From an uncultured Bacilli bacterium (GTDB taxonomy: Bacteria > Bacillota_I > Bacilli_A > RF39 > UBA660): a stretch of 34,949 nt of DNA. The notes below the pieces were generated by a model. That model did no database searches and had not been told where the DNA came from. It saw nothing but the letters and a program-made list of their open reading frames with translations. Below are positions 2,394 through 29,589 of this stretch, piece after piece (position 1 is the stretch's first letter; each line of letters begins with the position of its first letter). A program made the position numbers and the translations under genes. The stretch covers positions 1 through 34,949 of the forward strand of contig CALVIZ010000011.1 of NCBI GenBank assembly GCA_944331865.1, written 5' to 3'.

Positions 2394-3309
2394 GCCAATC
2401 TATTTTTTCAATGGGTGCATATTTAGATATTTCTAAATATGCATTTTTTAAAAATAATTCATATTCTTTATTTTTCTTAATAATATTAACTAATTTTTCT
2501 TCTGATTCATCATTGTTCATTATATTTTCATATAAATCAAAATAATATGATGGATATAATAATCTTGCATATAACATATGATATTCATAAATAGATAATG
2601 TTTTTATTTGTAAATAATATTTTAATTCCTCAATTACTTCTTCAGCATTATCACTTGCAAAAAACATTGCTTTTAAATATTCTGCAATATCTCTTACTTC
2701 TAAATCAAAAATAAATGCTAGAGGATTTAAAAAATTAAGTTTATAATTTGGATAAAAAATACGTCGATGAGCTAATGTAATTTTGGCATTATTTAAAGCG
2801 TTATATTTTAAATTAGTATTATTTACATAACTTATTGCATTTTCTGCTAATCCTAAATAATAACTAAATGAATCTTTTATTACAGTTTTATTAATTCCTA
2901 ATTCTCTTATTTGATATTCAAAATAATCCATTTTTTGTGTCCATAAATTACTCCAATTATTGCGATATAATTTGCTTGTATTATAATTTAATGTTAGTTT
3001 GTTAGCAATATTAATCATATCAAATATGTCATATTCTTCATTATAATTGTTTACTGACATTAATATATAATCAAAATTATTTATTTTAGTTAGATATTGC
3101 CCATTTCTATTAATTATTATATTATGAACATCAATTCCTTTTTCTTTCATATTATTAACACAAATCAATATATCATTTAATTCTTCAATATTACGATTAA
3201 AATATACAAAAAAGAAATCTTGATTTTGATACTTAAAAAAGTATTTGCCATCTTGTTCTTTTAAATCATCAATATCAATATTGTAATAATATTTAATCGT
3301 TTCCTTCAT
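2383..3309 (-). CDS. YutH/CotS-like spore-coat pseudokinase
   Basis: 308 residues resembling the aminoglycoside-phosphotransferase-fold proteins YutH and CotS of Bacillus spore coats. A small N-lobe (about 1-90) is followed by a helical C-lobe. The catalytic-loop equivalent reads LAHRRI rather than HGD-x4-N, and the metal-site equivalent reads DLEVRDIAEYLK, like the D-x-SRDLAEWI of YutH. The catalytic Asp is therefore missing and I infer a degenerate kinase. The gene sits beside a NifU-type gene (YutI), YutD and YunB, which recalls the yut/yun region of Bacillus subtilis. It has its own promoter-like TATAAT at 3315-3320 directly after a terminator. Confidence 0.6.
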   Translation of the reverse strand: MKETIKYYYNIDIDDLKEQDGKYFFKYQNQDFFFVYFNRNIEELNDILICVNNMKEKGIDVHNIIINRNGQYLTKINNFDYILMSVNNYNEEYDIFDMINIANKLTLNYNTSKLYRNNWSNLWTQKMDYFEYQIRELGINKTVIKDSFSYYLGLAENAISYVNNTNLKYNALNNAKITLAHRRIFYPNYKLNFLNPLAFIFDLEVRDIAEYLKAMFFASDNAEEVIEELKYYLQIKTLSIYEYHMLYARLLYPSYYFDLYENIMNNDESEEKLVNIIKKNKEYELFLKNAYLEISKYAPIEKIDWLIN

Positions 3310-3321
3310 ACTAAATTATAT

Positions 3322-3348
3322 AAAAAAAATAGGTTTTAATACCTATTT
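3322..3348 (-). terminator. Terminator of the operon ending with the repeat-bearing gene
   Basis: Read on the minus strand: AAATAGGT/ACCTATTT stem with a 6-base loop and eight T. It lies between the stop at 3343 and the yutH-like gene and separates the two units. Confidence 0.8.
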
Positions 3349-4215
3349 ATTAAATTTTGCTACTAATGCATCAAACATATTTTCACAAGCTTTTAAAAAT
3401 GCCTCTTTATCAGCAGTAAAATCTACTGAAACTTCTTCAGTAGTTTCTTCATTAATAGGATTTACTACTGGTTGGTCCATTATTGGAGCTTCAACTTGTG
3501 AATTTTGTGGTGCTTCTGGCATTACGGGACTTACTTCTGGGGTTACTGAAATTGGTGTCGGAGTCGTAACTTCAGGACTTGTTGGAGTTACTTCTATATT
3601 TGGACCAACTGGTGCTGGACTTACAGTTTCAGGAGTCATTTGAGCTACATCAACGTTTGGAACAACTGGTGCTGGACTTACAGTTTCAGGAGTCATTTGA
3701 GCTACATCAACATTTGGAACAACCGGTGTTGGGCTTACAACTTCGGGTGTCATTTGAGCTATATCAGTATTTGAAACTGATGTAGGATTTACAACTTCAG
3801 GACTTGCTGGTGCAATATTAGGACTTACTGTTTCTGAAACTGGTTCTATTGGAGTTGTTTCTCCATCTTGGGGATTATAATTGTTTTTTAGTGCTTCAAA
3901 TGATGCCACTGGTAATGTTAATTGAGTAAAAAACACTTCATCACCCATTAATGTATCTTCAACTTTAACATAATCTACTTGGTTGCCTGCTATAATCATT
4001 CTTAAATTTTCTTTTACAGCATTCCATTCATTTTGATCTATAATTTTTATTAATTTATTGTTATCTAGTTTAGATACTAAAATAATTGGTAAGCCCATTG
4101 TTCCATTCATTTCATTATCTAAAACTGTATATATTCCATTATTGCCCCTAAAAGCAGTAATCAATGGCTTTTCTATCATTGTTCCGTTAGTTAAATTAAT
4201 TTTTATTTTTTCCAC
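3343..4215 (-). CDS. Unknown protein with Pro/Thr-rich repeat linker
   Basis: About 290 residues in three parts. An N-terminal globular domain (about 1-115) contains GLPIILVSKLDNN and QLTLPVASFEALKNNY. A Pro/Val/Thr/Ser-rich linker (about 120-240) contains tandem 19-residue repeats (AQMTPETVSPAPVVPN). A short C-terminal helix (about 265-290, AFLKACENMFDALVAKF) follows. No signal peptide or membrane span is visible, so it is probably cytoplasmic, with the linker separating two binding modules. I favour the GTG at 4215 as start because AAGGGA lies nine bases upstream; an ATG at 4233 has no such site. Family not recognised. It ends the operon with yutD and yunB. Confidence 0.75.
   Translation of the reverse strand: MEKIKINLTNGTMIEKPLITAFRGNNGIYTVLDNEMNGTMGLPIILVSKLDNNKLIKIIDQNEWNAVKENLRMIIAGNQVDYVKVEDTLMGDEVFFTQLTLPVASFEALKNNYNPQDGETTPIEPVSETVSPNIAPASPEVVNPTSVSNTDIAQMTPEVVSPTPVVPNVDVAQMTPETVSPAPVVPNVDVAQMTPETVSPAPVGPNIEVTPTSPEVTTPTPISVTPEVSPVMPEAPQNSQVEAPIMDQPVVNPINEETTEEVSVDFTADKEAFLKACENMFDALVAKFNK
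3599..3769. repeat. Three tandem 57-bp repeats inside the Pro/Thr-rich linker
   Basis: Units at 3599-3655, 3656-3712 and 3713-3769, each beginning TTTGGAxCAAC on the plus strand. The first two differ at only a few bases; the third is more diverged and is followed by a decayed partial unit. Each unit encodes 19 residues, so copy-number change keeps the frame. Confidence 0.9.
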
Positions 4216-14035: not shown

Positions 14036-15001
14036 ATGAAAAAAAGAAGAAGAAAAAGAAGATTAATCATAGTAATATTTGTATTATTAATTATATTAGG
14101 TTTTTTATTGTTTATTTATTTTTCTAATAAACAAAAACTAAAGGAATATGAAAATCAGTTGACAAAGATAAGTTTAAAAATTAAAAATAATAATACTTAT
14201 GCTAGTTGTTTAATTACACCATATAAAAGTGATAAAGTTGATCAGTTATATGATGATTTATTAAATAGTTTAAATACTTCTTTGGTATCTATTTATTTTG
14301 AAGATATTTATAATGATTATACATTAACTTTAAATGAAAATACTATTTATTATAATGCTAGTATTATTAAATTATTTGATGCTTCTTATATAATAGATAA
14401 TAAAATTGATTTAAATGATACTATTACTTTTAATAATACATATAGAAGTTTAGCTAAAGAAGGCTTGCTTGATTATGCTTTAAATGAAGAAGTACCAATT
14501 AAAGATGTTTTATATTATGCAATTTCTGTAAGTGATAATGGAGCACATAGAATGCTTACTGATTATATAGGAATTAGTAATTTAAAAGAATATGCTAAAA
14601 AAACTTTAGGTATCACTTTAAGAATAACTGATACTGAAAGATATGGCAGTTTAAGTGTTAATGATACAAATATATTATTAAAACATTTATATAGTTTATT
14701 ACAAAATAATGATGAATATAGTAATTTATTAAAAGATGCTATGAATAATGATTATTGTAATTTTTTAAGTTTTGATGATATCGAAATTTTACATAAATAC
14801 GGCTATTACAGTTCATATTTACATGATATAGGTATTTATAATAGTAGTAATCCTTATTTAATATCTTTATTTACTTTATATGGGAATCCTGATAAAGGTG
14901 GAAGTGATAAAATAAATAATTTAAGTAAAGAAATATATAATATATATAAAACTAATTTAGATGAAAAAGAAGAATATTGTTATAATTTAGCATATAACTA
15001 A
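14036..15001 (+). CDS. Membrane-anchored serine hydrolase of the class A beta-lactamase fold
   Basis: 321 residues. A very basic N-terminus (KKRRRKRR) and one membrane span (about 10-28) put the domain outside the cell. The penicillin-recognising motifs are Ser109-I-I-Lys112 and Ser166-Asp-Asn168. The third motif is Lys253-Tyr-Gly255 rather than KTG or KSG, and I see no ExxxN omega loop. True antibiotic hydrolysis is therefore unlikely; a role in wall peptide processing is more plausible. It directly follows uppP with a TAGTGAT site and is probably co-transcribed. Exact substrate unknown. Confidence 0.78.
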   Translation: MKKRRRKRRLIIVIFVLLIILGFLLFIYFSNKQKLKEYENQLTKISLKIKNNNTYASCLITPYKSDKVDQLYDDLLNSLNTSLVSIYFEDIYNDYTLTLNENTIYYNASIIKLFDASYIIDNKIDLNDTITFNNTYRSLAKEGLLDYALNEEVPIKDVLYYAISVSDNGAHRMLTDYIGISNLKEYAKKTLGITLRITDTERYGSLSVNDTNILLKHLYSLLQNNDEYSNLLKDAMNNDYCNFLSFDDIEILHKYGYYSSYLHDIGIYNSSNPYLISLFTLYGNPDKGGSDKINNLSKEIYNIYKTNLDEKEEYCYNLAYN

Positions 15002-15013
15002 TATTCTTCTTTT
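14965..15013. terminator. Bidirectional terminator between convergent genes
   Basis: Perfect 14-bp inverted repeat AAAAGAAGAATATT/AATATTCTTCTTTT around a 21-base loop. It overlaps the 3' end of the beta-lactamase-fold gene and reaches the stop of the surface-protein gene, about 70 bases from the unusual 3' segment of the latter. Confidence 0.75.
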
Positions 15014-16766
15014 AATTTATACGTATTGGGTCACTACTAGTCCCAGATCCACTGACATAAGTTGTGGAAGATGTTAGATAAAAGACTGGCCGGACCGCAT
15101 TGTGGTTAAGGTACACATAGGGGTTGTTGAGGTGACCCGAATTGTTCACCATAAAGGCAAGATCGGAACTACTCGAGATACGAGAAATTGTCCATTCGAT
15201 TAGTCCCATGTACATCCAATTATTATTTTTAGCATTATCATAAGAAATCATTCTTGTTGTCCAATAACTATTGCTTGCTGCATATCCATAATCACTTACA
15301 TACATTAATCCTATTTTTGCACTATATGTTGTTCCACTACTTTCGGCATTATAAAATGTTTTTGGTGTTGCACTATATGTTGAATATCCTCCTACATACC
15401 ATGTATGCGTTGCTATTTTATTACTCCATGTTGTTCCTATATAACTCAAATATGAACTGTTTAAATTTGTTTTATTTAGTCTTGATTCACTCCATGTGTT
15501 TGTTGAACTTTCTCCATTACTTCTATTCCAGTAATATATTGCTATATTACTTTGGCTCATGTTTCCTTTATAATAACTTGATGACCCCCCCCATGAACTT
15601 TGATAATCTCCGTGATAATCTCCTCCTGAGCCTGTCATTGTTGTTGTCGTATAATCTGCTTTTATTAGTTTTACTTCACTACCAAATACTCCGATGATTC
15701 GATATAAGTTATCACTTGGACATGTAGCTGCATCAGACCCAAAACATACATAGTTATTTGGATTTGCCCCTGCATATCTATAACTATTGTCTCTTGCACT
15801 ATTTGCTAGGCTTCTTGTATGATAATATATTCCATTTGAACCTTGACTTGTATATTGACTTTTTATACATGTTGCTAAATTTGTGCCAGTATTGCAAATA
15901 TATGTTACACTTTCTGTCTCCGCATTTATTGTATATACATTTGAATCTACTCCATTTGTGTCTTTTACATATACTTTTATTGTGTATGTTGTTCCCATAC
16001 TTAAACCTGTAAATGTTTTAGTATTACTTGTACTACTTGTGTATGCACCATTATTTATTGAATAATAATATGTTGCTACACTATTTGTTCCTCCACTTGC
16101 TGATACACTTATACTTATTGTATCATTTGTTGTATCTGTTACTGTTACAATATTTACTTTTGGATTTACATACGCATTTGTTGTTACTTGTACTGTTTCT
16201 TCATTTGTTTCATATCCTAATGTATCTTTTGCATATACTTTAAATTTATATGTTGTTCCATAATTTAAGTTACTAAATGTATATGTATTACTTGTACTTT
16301 CTTCATATGATTGTCCATCATCTTTACTAAAGTAATATTTTTCTATTGGGTTTTCTCCAACTTCTGTTGTTACTGTTAAAGTTACACTATTTGTTGTTTT
16401 AGTATTTGTTACATTAGTTATTTTTGCTACATTATATTTATCAAAATAAACATAACATTTATCTGATCCACTACTTATTAGTTTTACTATGTTAGTTTTT
16501 CTATCATATACTAATTCTCCACCTCTTTCACAACCGGATAGTTCATTATTAAAAGCATAACCATCCCCCGGCCATGTACTAGCAGAAGATTTTTTATAAG
16601 TTCCATCATCTTGTTCTAACATTAAAGTTAAAAATCCATTTGTATTTACATTTGGTTTTGTTTTATTACTTTCTTCTTCTTTTGTTTTTGGTATTAATAA
16701 ATATACTCCTACTACTAATATTATAAATGTACTAAATATTATTAAATTTCTTTTTTTATTTTTCAT
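15012..16766 (-). CDS. N-terminally anchored fibronectin type III surface protein
   Basis: 584 residues. A basic start and one membrane span (about 8-26) without a clear cleavage site suggest a type II anchor with the body outside. Two fibronectin type III domains follow (about 113-196 and 202-288; each with TYKFKVYAKD or TYTIKVYVKD), then a large C-terminal domain rich in Ser, Tyr, Asn and Trp (about 292-584). This contains IGLMYVSDYGYAA, WTISR and VRPVFYL and ends GTSSDPIRIN. I recall many paralogues of this C-terminal type in gut Firmicutes; a binding or adhesive role is inferred. The last ~65 codons differ strongly in codon use, and a G8 run lies in codons for WGGS. GGTGAT precedes the ATG. 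Confidence 0.8.
   Translation of the reverse strand: MKNKKRNLIIFSTFIILVVGVYLLIPKTKEEESNKTKPNVNTNGFLTLMLEQDDGTYKKSSASTWPGDGYAFNNELSGCERGGELVYDRKTNIVKLISSGSDKCYVYFDKYNVAKITNVTNTKTTNSVTLTVTTEVGENPIEKYYFSKDDGQSYEESTSNTYTFSNLNYGTTYKFKVYAKDTLGYETNEETVQVTTNAYVNPKVNIVTVTDTTNDTISISVSASGGTNSVATYYYSINNGAYTSSTSNTKTFTGLSMGTTYTIKVYVKDTNGVDSNVYTINAETESVTYICNTGTNLATCIKSQYTSQGSNGIYYHTRSLANSARDNSYRYAGANPNNYVCFGSDAATCPSDNLYRIIGVFGSEVKLIKADYTTTTMTGSGGDYHGDYQSSWGGSSSYYKGNMSQSNIAIYYWNRSNGESSTNTWSESRLNKTNLNSSYLSYIGTTWSNKIATHTWYVGGYSTYSATPKTFYNAESSGTTYSAKIGLMYVSDYGYAASNSYWTTRMISYDNAKNNNWMYMGLIEWTISRISSSSDLAFMVNNSGHLNNPYVYLNHNAVRPVFYLTSSTTYVSGSGTSSDPIRIN
15018..15225 (-). other. Compositionally distinct 3' segment, putative variable region
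   Basis: By hand count 15021-15220 is about 45% G+C (89 of 200), against about 32% in the next 60 bases upstream in the gene. Arg codons switch from AGA to CGT and CGG, and Ala, Val and Leu codons become GCG, GTC, CTC. Many codons are NNC or NNT (CAC CTC AAC AAC CCC TAT). The segment encodes WTISR through VRPVFYL to the C-terminus. See the findings for the retroelement interpretation. Confidence 0.6.
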
Positions 16767-26031: not shown

Positions 26032-26067
26032 AAAAAAAATTAGTTAACTTAAATATTAACTAATTTT
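26032..26067 (-). terminator. leuS terminator
   Basis: On the minus strand AAAATTAGTTAA/TTAACTAATTTT, 12 perfect pairs, 8-base loop and eight T. The stem begins at the leuS stop codon. Confidence 0.88.
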
Positions 26068-28876
26068 ATTTAACTACTATGTTTACTATTCTACCTGGTA
26101 ATACTATTATTTTAATTATTTCTTTACCTTCAATATGTTTTTTTACATTATTTTCATTTAATGCTTTTTCTTTGGTTAATTCAATATCTTCATCTATAGC
26201 TACTTTTATTGCTGCCCTAGTCTTACCATTTACTTGAACACCTATTTTTTTTTCTTTATCAATTGTTTTTTCTTCATCATATTTTGGCCATGAAGTTTCA
26301 CAAAGTGGTTTATAGCCTAATTCTTCATTTAACTCTTCTGTTGTATGTGGTGCTATAGGATTTAATAATGTTAATAATAAATGATAATCTTCCCTTGTAA
26401 TGTGTTCTTGTTCTTCATATTTGTTAGTTAATATCATTAATGTAGATATTGCTGTATTATAACCCATATGAGTTAAGTCATATTCAACTTTTTTAATACT
26501 TTTGTTAATTATCGTTTCTAAGTCTTTAGAATATTCATTTCCTTCGATAACTTTGTCTTTTAAACGTATTACTTTGTCTAAGAATCTTTTGCATCCTTTA
26601 AGAGAATCTGTATTCCATGGACAATCTAGTTCATAATCTCCCATAAATAGTTCATATGTTCTTAAAGTATCTGCTCCAAATTCTTTTACTATATCATCTG
26701 GATTAATAACATTACCTTTTGATTTACTCATTTTTTGATTGTCACTACCTAAAACCATTCCATGACTTACTCTAGTCCAAATCATTTCTTTATTTGGTAC
26801 TAAACCAATATTGTATAAAAATTGTACCCAAAATCTTGCATATAATAAATGTCTTGCAGTGTGCTCCATTCCCCCATTGTACCAATCAACTTTATTCCAA
26901 TATTTTAATGCATCCATTGAAGCAAATTCTTTGGTGTTGTGTGGGTCCATAAATCTTAAGAAATACCATGAAGATCCCGCCCAGTTAGGCATTGTATCAG
27001 TTTCCCTTTTAGCGGCATCTCCACATTTTGGACATGTAGTGTTTACCCAATCAGTTATCTTTGCTAGTGGGCTTTCTCCAGTATCTGTTGGCTCATATTC
27101 CGCAACATCCGGAAGTAATAATGGTAAATCTTTTTCATCCATTGGTACCCAACCACATTTTTCACAGTAAATCATAGGAATTGGTTCTCCCCAGAATCTT
27201 TGTCTTGAAAAAATCCAATCACGCATTTTATAGTTGACTTGTTTGTTACCACATTTGTTTTCTTCTAAAAATTCTAACATCTTGGCTATTGCTTCATCTT
27301 TATTTAAACCATTTAGAAATTCTGAATTAATGTGTATGCCATCACCTACCATTGCTCCCGGTTTAATAGCATATTCAAATGTCTTTTTGTGTAATTCGTC
27401 TGTAATTTCTTTTTCTATTACTTCTTTAGTTACCCATTCTATATCAAATTTTTCATCTTCATCTAAGTTTTGTTCTACTTTTTCATTATCTATTAATTTA
27501 AATAAAAATCCTGTTGATTCTATATTAAAATATTTATCTTTGTTATATGCATAATAATGATGATTAATTTTAGATAATTCATGAACTAATTCAAAATTTT
27601 CATAACCAGTTTCTTCCAAAATTTCTCTTTTAGCACATTCTAGTGGAGTTTCATTTTCTTTAATTGTTCCACCAATAAATAGTCTGCCACCTAACTCATG
27701 CCAATTAATCGTTAAATATTTATCATTTTTTTCATCATAAAGTATTGCTACTATTGAATTCTTTTTGGTTTCATTATTTGCTTTTTTACCAGTTTCTTCT
27801 TCTAATACTTGAATAATTGGTATATTAAATTTAATTGCAAAATCATAGTCTCTTTCATCATGAGCTGGAACAGCCATAATGGCTCCGGTACCATAACTAG
27901 CTAATACATAATCACTTATATAAATAGGTATTTTGTTGTTGTTTACGGGATTAATAGCATATGCTCCAGTAAATACACCTGTTTTATCTTTATTTAATTC
28001 TGTTCTTTCTAAATCATTTTTTAAAGAACATGCATGCTTGTAATCTGCTACTTCTTTTTTGTGTTCTTCAGTTGTTATGATATCTACTAATTTGTGTTCT
28101 GGTGCAAGTACACAATATGTTGCTCCAAATAATGTATCACACCTTGTTGTAAATACCGTAAATTCTTCATTACAGCCATCTACTTTAAAGATAATTTCAG
28201 CACCAATAGATTTTCCTATCCAATTAATTTGACCTAATTTAACCTTTTCCGCAAAGTTTGTATCATCTAATCCCTTAAGTAAGTCTTCTGCATAATCGCT
28301 CATACGTAACATCCATTGACTTTTTTCTTTTTGAACTACTTGAGTTCCACATCTTTCGCAAACCCCACCAGCTGCATCTTCATTTGATAAAACGGTTTTA
28401 CAATTTGGACACCAATTAACTGGAACTGTTGCTTTGTATGCCATATCATGTTCATAAAATTTTAAAAATTGCCATTGGGTCCATTTGTAATATTCTGGAT
28501 CTGTTGTTGAAAATTCTCGATTCCAATCAAATGAAAATCCTAGCGTTTTCATTTGATTTTTAAATGTTACAATATTTTTAGCAATTGCTTCTTTAGGATG
28601 TATATGATTTTTTATTGCATATTGTTCTGCAGGTGCTCCAAATGCATCAAATCCCATTGGAAATAAAACATTGTATCCTTGCATTCGCATCATTCTTGCC
28701 ATTGCATCTTGAGCAGTATAACTTCTTACATGTCCTACGTGTAAACCTGATCCTGATGGATACGGAAATTCTACTAATATATAATATGGTTTTTTATCAC
28801 TTCCAGTTTCGGCTTTAAAACTTTCGTGTTCATCCCAATATTTTTGCCATTTTTCTTCAATTTTTTTGTTTTCCAT
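26066..28876 (-). CDS. leuS: Leucyl-tRNA synthetase with inserted Nudix domain
   Basis: 936 residues, about 100-130 longer than usual bacterial LeuRS. Class I motifs are present: HVGH (46-49, in PYPSGSGLHVGH) and KMSKS in QKMSKSKGN. Zinc-type Cys pairs occur in CPNCK/CERCG and CEKCGW/CPKCG. The CP1 editing domain starts near 225 (FTTRCDTLFGATY, AVPAHDERDYDFA). Inside it, residues ~373-505 form a complete Nudix domain with box G403-x5-E409-x7-R417-E-I-x-E421-E422-x-G424. The editing domain resumes at GAMVGDGIHINSEFLNGL. It charges tRNA-Leu and the T-box upstream controls it. It overlaps the preceding membrane gene by 20 bases. Confidence 0.97.
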   Translation of the reverse strand: MENKKIEEKWQKYWDEHESFKAETGSDKKPYYILVEFPYPSGSGLHVGHVRSYTAQDAMARMMRMQGYNVLFPMGFDAFGAPAEQYAIKNHIHPKEAIAKNIVTFKNQMKTLGFSFDWNREFSTTDPEYYKWTQWQFLKFYEHDMAYKATVPVNWCPNCKTVLSNEDAAGGVCERCGTQVVQKEKSQWMLRMSDYAEDLLKGLDDTNFAEKVKLGQINWIGKSIGAEIIFKVDGCNEEFTVFTTRCDTLFGATYCVLAPEHKLVDIITTEEHKKEVADYKHACSLKNDLERTELNKDKTGVFTGAYAINPVNNNKIPIYISDYVLASYGTGAIMAVPAHDERDYDFAIKFNIPIIQVLEEETGKKANNETKKNSIVAILYDEKNDKYLTINWHELGGRLFIGGTIKENETPLECAKREILEETGYENFELVHELSKINHHYYAYNKDKYFNIESTGFLFKLIDNEKVEQNLDEDEKFDIEWVTKEVIEKEITDELHKKTFEYAIKPGAMVGDGIHINSEFLNGLNKDEAIAKMLEFLEENKCGNKQVNYKMRDWIFSRQRFWGEPIPMIYCEKCGWVPMDEKDLPLLLPDVAEYEPTDTGESPLAKITDWVNTTCPKCGDAAKRETDTMPNWAGSSWYFLRFMDPHNTKEFASMDALKYWNKVDWYNGGMEHTARHLLYARFWVQFLYNIGLVPNKEMIWTRVSHGMVLGSDNQKMSKSKGNVINPDDIVKEFGADTLRTYELFMGDYELDCPWNTDSLKGCKRFLDKVIRLKDKVIEGNEYSKDLETIINKSIKKVEYDLTHMGYNTAISTLMILTNKYEEQEHITREDYHLLLTLLNPIAPHTTEELNEELGYKPLCETSWPKYDEEKTIDKEKKIGVQVNGKTRAAIKVAIDEDIELTKEKALNENNVKKHIEGKEIIKIIVLPGRIVNIVVK

Positions 28877-29387
28877 TTTTTACCCAACCTTTCTTTACTA
28901 AATGTCTTCCTAATAATTCATATAATGCATATATTAATGCAAATAACAAGACAAATCCTATTAACATTTTATATGGTAAATCCCATGGTATTAAATATAT
29001 TATTACAAATACCGCGGATATTATAAATGAATTTATGAGTGAAGATAATATAAATACATAATTTAAATTCATCTTATTAATATCTAAATTAAATTTTGGT
29101 ATTATTAACGAAAATCCTAGAAAATCTTCAATTGTTTTATTTTTTTCCTTTTCTTTACTTTTTTCTAATTTATTATTATCGTTTATTAAAGAAATATTAT
29201 TGTTTACTTGTAACTTTTTTTTACCTACATTCAGTTTGGTAGTTACAGAAAATGCTAATAAGTCTTTTGGCGTTTTATTTTTTTCTATTTTCTTATAACC
29301 CTTTTTTAAAATTAAAAAATAATTTATAACAAATACGATTATAAAAATAGCTATTCCCCATATTAATGTTATTAAGTGATTATCCAT
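28857..29387 (-). CDS. Membrane protein between T-box and leuS, unknown
   Basis: 176 residues with three hydrophobic spans (about 6-27, 108-131 and 137-159). A charged cytoplasmic loop (30-100) contains two similar stretches, NKTPKDLLAFSV and NKTIEDFLGFSL, an apparent internal repeat. GGAGGATAT precedes the ATG. It is the first gene behind the leucine T-box and overlaps leuS, so it must be made when charged tRNA-Leu is scarce. I do not recognise the family and see no transporter motif. Confidence 0.78.
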   Translation of the reverse strand: MDNHLITLIWGIAIFIIVFVINYFLILKKGYKKIEKNKTPKDLLAFSVTTKLNVGKKKLQVNNNISLINDNNKLEKSKEKEKNKTIEDFLGFSLIIPKFNLDINKMNLNYVFILSSLINSFIISAVFVIIYLIPWDLPYKMLIGFVLLFALIYALYELLGRHLVKKGWVKNGKQKN

Positions 29388-29400
29388 ATATCCTCCATAA

Positions 29401-29582
29401 AAAAAAGGTGAACCTAAAGGACGAGTTTCCCCGTGGTACCACCTTATTTACTTCTTATTAATTGATAAAGGAATTACCCTAATACATCCAAAAGCAAGTT
29501 CAATTAATTCTTTTATTAGTTTTCACCAACCACTAACTCTCTATTAAATATCCTTAATTTACTACTCTTTTTTCTTCTGCTT
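29401..29582 (-). promoter_or_regulatory. T-box riboswitch, leucine-specific
   Basis: On the minus strand the leader has the T-box signature GGTGGTACCACGG (29431-29443) and stem I elements AGAGAG with GGTTGGTGAAA (29524-29543). The candidate specifier CTT (Leu) lies in TTGAACTTGC (29496-29498). The terminator pairs AAGGTG with CACCTT and ends in T7 (29401-29446). Uncharged tRNA-Leu would favour the antiterminator and allow expression of the downstream membrane gene and leuS. Confidence 0.92.
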
Positions 29583-29589
29583 ACAAGTT

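Follow-up and report, generated by a model that had tools for sequence, protein, structure and literature searches.

The TvpA-type diversity-generating retroelement (DGR) of Treponema denticola is chromosomal and has several dispersed targets with a C-type lectin fold, 2 to 7 per isolate. Two DGR types occur in this species, and targets are left over after loss of the reverse transcriptase (RT) and the template repeat (TR) (PMC4891356). DUF6273 has been described before as a target domain of DGRs. In Faecalibacterium prophages, the variable region (VR) lies at the C terminus of this domain, and the "tentaclin" DGRs of gut phages share both this target domain and its resemblance to C-type lectins (PMC11792537, PMC10743442). 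Targets of the nd12 phage type additionally carry fn3/Ig domains (PMC11792537, PMC10743442). Thiohalocapsa PB-PSB1 has nine DGR loci with 15 targets and 21 VRs, belonging to conflict systems, and evidence for action in trans (PMC10907252). The DGR of Bordetella phage BPP-1 (mtd/TR/bRT/Avd) has a single target, adenine-directed differences between VR and TR, Avd, a GC-rich VR end at the initiation-of-mutagenic-homing (IMH) element and a spacer between the TR and RT genes.

Here we describe a DGR target in the genome of an uncultured Bacilli bacterium. The window (the whole 34,949-nt stretch of DNA that was analyzed) contains a gene for a putative surface protein, and we consider, with a probability of about 0.9, that positions 15086 to 15189 (minus strand) of this gene are a remote VR of a DGR. 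Apart from the single target of BPP-1, the listed features of the T. denticola and BPP-1 systems have parallels here, as do the many targets of Thiohalocapsa and the domains of the phage targets. In contrast to T. denticola, the genome belongs to another bacterial class and its 1.19 Mb include about 25 family members, with targets that have a DUF6273-type domain as well as an fn3 region, and with a MutS domain I-like (MutS_I) accessory ORF. This added ORF, the many remote targets and the stem-loop-less window copy also distinguish it from BPP-1, while the nine loci of Thiohalocapsa contrast with one family of surface proteins here. Furthermore, the lectin-like domain is C-terminal and not N-terminal as in tentaclins, and whereas phage and prophage DGRs are phage genes, the targets are dispersed over the bacterial genome. 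The viral contigs searched contained no close relative of the RT and no exact VR/TR-end pattern, and a viral origin of the DGR was therefore rejected.

Composition sets the VR apart from its surroundings. Its G+C content is 48.1% (44.7% in 15060-15200), compared to 32.5% over the adjoining 510 upstream bases (15190-15700) and 25.2% across the window, and adenine on the coding strand amounts to 23% within the VR versus 45% upstream. Only two places in the window have 104-nt stretches as GC-rich as the VR, the other being the tRNA gene at position 1. A reading of the DNA that preceded this analysis, made from the sequence only, had noted an abrupt shift in composition at the 3' end of the gene. 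The measurements against flank and window show that this observation was real. However, the altered stretch, given there as ~65 codons, is about 35 codons long, and the last 24 codons of the gene are common to the paralogues. The sequence GCGGTCCGGCCAGTC, which the same reading placed after the variable stretch, is indeed present. The features are listed in the table.

Table. Features of the window gene and of the DGR locus on contig C1 (positions without a contig name refer to the window)
Feature	Location	Strand	Basis or remark
Target gene, 584 aa	15012..16766	-	ORF, profile and structure matches
N-terminal membrane anchor (predicted hydrophobic segment)	Window gene, N terminus		Translation
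Fibronectin III region	Window gene, fn3 match aa 118-193		Profile match
C-type-lectin-like domain (predicted), DUF6273 kind	Window gene, aa ~285-584, C-terminal		Model and fold comparison
VR, about 104 nt, 34-35 codons	15086..15189	-	Alignment with paralogous VRs and the TR of a sister species
GC-rich VR end GCGGTCCGGCCAGTC, at IMH position	15084..15098	-	Sequence, template comparison
Constant 3' end of window gene, FYLTSSTTYVSGSGTSSDPIRIN	15015..15083	-	No strong stem-loop here
Inverted repeat between two convergent genes	About 14972..15013	.	Gene ends 15001 and 15012
Paralogue of window gene (target)	C1 3649-5307	-	
Non-coding TR	C1 ~3285-3391	-	
MutS_I-like ORF	C1 2584-2958	-	
avd-like ORF	C1 2219-2587	-	phrog_3206, NF033474
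DGR RT	C1 2121-1178	-	RVT_1, phrog_1423 reverse transcriptase

In agreement with the sequence-only reading, the window itself contains neither an RT nor a template. The RT search of the 1.19-Mb, 57-contig assembly gave one RT on contig C20 and one on C1. The C20 enzyme was rejected as a DGR enzyme: it is a retron-type RT (RT_Ec107-like, E 5e-119). Its gene (L001:1273-2301, G000:C20; PADLOC RT_Ec107-like) adjoins a CTP synthase-like gene. On C1, the order of the elements is target-TR-MutS_I-avd-RT, so that the retroelement-type RT sought in the genome was found together with a TR and avd. Profile matches and the motif LPIGN(M/V)(T/S)SQ assign the C1 RT to the DGR clade. The best PDB match of its profile is 8ub7 (E 2e-24), the BPP-1 bRT complex, and group II RTs rank behind. 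Among annotated phage RTs, that of phage nd12 is one of the nearest (38%). The putative Avd accessory protein matches phrog_3206, "Avd protein of DGR," with E 3e-6, and NF033474 with E 2e-6, the latter under its curated cutoff.

The differences between the TR near the RT gene and the VRs are adenine specific. Between the C1 TR and the adjacent VR, 15 of the 30 template adenines are changed, but only 2 of the 73 other bases (P = 3.6e-8; because the sites are not independent of one another, this and all following P values only indicate the size of the effect). The VR on C42 differs from the same TR at 17/30 adenines and 3/73 other bases (P = 7e-9). The C1 RT is the only DGR RT in the assembly, and compared to its relatives its frame is disrupted twice, near codon 8 and codon 170 (L024:1178-2230, G000:C1). 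The assembly thus contains no intact DGR RT, and the broken frame reflects either decay of the element or an assembly error. A gene for a PDDEXK_2 transposase-family nuclease is located directly downstream of the RT operon (L024:1-834, G000:C1).

The C1 TR was rejected as the template of the window VR, from which it differs at more than 22 of the 73 non-adenine positions. Instead, the window VR groups with VRs on C6, C33, C5 (two) and C4. A template inferred from the own-genome VRs of this group was used as the query over 30 genomes of the genus. The best match (G005:C3:62579-62680; 92%, above any VR) is a real TR in a sister species, named TR2. It lies between a VR gene and the MutS_I, avd and RT genes, and differs from the neighboring VR gene at 14/34 adenines and 1/67 other bases. 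The VRs on C11, C6, C5 and C33 of the own genome are polymorphic at 30 of the 34 TR2 adenines, compared to 9 of the 67 other sites (P = 1.4e-13). No adenine preference was detected in the 300 columns upstream of these VRs, which served as a control (30/131 A versus 47/169 non-A). When the template was predicted from the other three VRs, the window differed from it at 19/40 adenines versus 3/61 other sites (P = 5e-7). The alignment of paralogues proposed in the sequence-only reading therefore bore out its expectation: the VRs differ almost only at template adenines, and the upstream flank shows no such bias.

Direct comparison of the window VR with the sister-species TR, a stand-in because its own template is absent from the assembly, gave differences at 13/34 adenines and 9/67 other bases. 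Most of the latter are common to the own-genome VRs, which fits template divergence. A genome-wide search for a template, which had also been proposed, was thus successful in that a TR exists on C1, but the exact template of the window was identified from a sister species. The own assembly contains no full TR of this second class, only truncated TR starts (C17:96-123 and C42:6710-6737). These starts (L079:77-140, G000:C17; L078:6690-6760, G000:C42) continue into TTGATTAGAAyAArCTAAAAAGA, which resembles the 3' end of a target gene, e.g., that on C4; it looks as though the TR end and the VR-gene end had been joined by a deletion. Of the 114 contig ends, at least 13 are no more than about 140 bases away from the target gene family or DGR sequence, and this clustering makes it plausible that a second cassette is missing from the assembly. 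The template of the window VR was probably either lost or not assembled.

At the 3' end of the window VR, comparison with the templates points to a GC-rich IMH: GCGGTCCGGCCAGTC corresponds to the near-identical ends GCGGTCCGGCCAGACC of the sister-species TR2 and GCGTGCGGCCAGACC of the C1 TR. A strong stem-loop after the VR, with -9 to -14 kcal/mol, is present in the copies on C1, C42, C6, C4 and C17. According to the folding energies, no such structure follows the IMH directly in the window copy, and it is also absent in other remote copies. The hairpin at 15027-15045, which had been pointed out previously, was rejected as the DGR stem-loop, since it is weak (-2.4 kcal/mol) and no better than chance (z 0.2). 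When the stem-loop is lost in the reconstituted BPP-1 system, homing is impaired without being abolished; the structure is strongly stimulating but not strictly required (PMC12875486). The 14-bp inverted repeat reported near the gene end is real. Located between convergent gene ends, it looks like a terminator, probably one that acts in both directions, and is unlikely to be part of the DGR.

The fn3 region and the N-terminal hydrophobic segment suggest that the window protein is surface anchored. Its C-terminal domain adopts a C-type-lectin-like fold in the AlphaFold model (aa 285-584; pLDDT 94.7). The closest structural match of the modeled domain is the N-terminal part of the Thomasclavelia ramosa IgA peptidase (VIA Z 16.2; 199 aligned residues with 18% identity, window 15015-15914, minus strand). 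Lower Z scores were obtained for the C-terminal domain of Legionella Lcl (6.5) and for PvdO (6.3), and many C-type lectins, including mammalian ones, matched with modest values of 4 to 5. The sequence profile of the domain matched no solved lectin, and the likeness is seen by fold comparison alone. In a profile search, DUF6273 was matched by 16 of the 58 family members. A role of the lectin-like domain in ligand binding appears likely.

The own genome contains about 25 paralogues (25 with a readable C-terminal end and one cut by a contig end, counted by eye). At least nine of them carry VRs of two template classes. Two further paralogues, on C17 and C20, have GC-rich, VR-like ends, and most remaining members have A-rich ends like ordinary coding sequence. 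In the genus, the RT is present in 23 of the 30 genomes, and the target domain in all of them, with 13 to 72 match segments per genome (segments, not genes). At several loci, VR/TR pairs recovered de novo show 12 to 20 adenine changes and no non-adenine mismatch. The named records are metagenome assemblies of uncultured Bacilli.

The state of the window VR could be explained in different ways. It is possible, at odds well short of even, that the diversification of the VR goes back to a DGR, that the template and RT of this DGR have since been lost or broken, and that the VR is now frozen. The disrupted frame of the own RT, the lack of the second-class TR in the assembly and the missing strong stem-loop of the window copy are consistent with such a history, and T. 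denticola isolates without RT and TR retain target genes (PMC4891356). However, the own-species VRs have few non-adenine changes even at third codon positions (the 3/61 of the window mentioned above), which argues for little decay after diversification, and the contig ends in or beside the gene family leave room for an unassembled second cassette.

Many paralogues have near-identical flanks, and VR classes occur with as well as without a stem-loop, as might be expected if gene conversion exchanged VR blocks between the ~25 paralogues, with no retroelement acting directly on the window gene. We consider this quite improbable, since every VR has its own pattern of changes on template adenines, and recombination alone yields no such pattern; gene conversion could still spread variants made by the DGR. 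Ordinary diversifying selection on a binding loop would suit a surface protein with amino-acid-altering changes, but it is extremely improbable given the adenine statistics: selection alone would not be expected to give so sharp a boundary, such a codon composition and, within the same stretch, almost no changes at non-adenine sites.

The reading of the window stretch as a remote VR agrees with the proposal in the sequence-only reading that the 3' end of the gene is a retroelement target. The genome contains an RT, avd, a TR and VRs, the variation is adenine directed, and many dispersed targets share two template classes. Judged from the sequence comparisons, the window VR was diversified by DGR chemistry, most likely acting in trans. 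In the proposed mechanism, a template RNA (TR and spacer) would be copied by the error-prone RT with the help of Avd, and template adenines would give rise to random bases in the cDNA. Homing at the GC-rich end that resembles an IMH, the cDNA would then take the place of the VR in target genes. Most of the rewritten codons read AAY in the template, from which many different residues could arise but never a stop. These codons would fall in the C-type-lectin-like stretch of an anchored surface protein, and the resulting surface binders would form a family whose specificities are scrambled. The target proteins are probably displayed at the surface, and the DGR may be active today. The mechanism is already known; what stands out is how many targets are dispersed over so small a genome, and that some targets have no stem-loop.

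Chromosomal DGRs occur in uncultured gut Bacilli whose genomes are close to 1 Mb, and there they are aimed at a large surface-protein family and not at phage tail fibers. The method of a large metagenome survey of DGRs is, by its own statement, blind to remote targets (PMC8144416), and the own genome shows how many of them such a survey can miss. If active, the DGR would let these bacteria vary their contacts with host, mucus or phages. A wider proposal, tentative and as a whole rather unlikely, is that in this genus of gut Bacilli with small genomes, tens of genes per genome are given over to a single family of surface lectins, and that one or a few DGR cassettes act in trans to hypermutate a subset of these genes, stem-loop-less targets included. 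If true, this would mean a dedicated, genome-wide diversification of binders, stem-loop-independent homing and frozen members that serve as stored variants.

Additional observations were made in the sister genomes and in the window. A group II intron of 1897 nt with a maturase (Rfam RF02005, RF00029; L140:6439-8335, G005:C3) interrupts the DGR RT by splitting the codon that encodes the second D of YMDD, the catalytic motif, and joining of its flanks restored YMDD and a 358-aa frame. The same 5' junction of the intron was found in G003:C1 (L144). Here, one retroelement breaks another at its active site. The DGR RT on G005:C8 (L141:4624-5700) has YMND instead of YMDD, yet between its TR and VR 17/27 adenines are changed, compared to 0/57 other sites. 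In the window, a T-box leader (29414-29585, minus strand) is located upstream of the ORFs 28857-29387 and 26066-28876.
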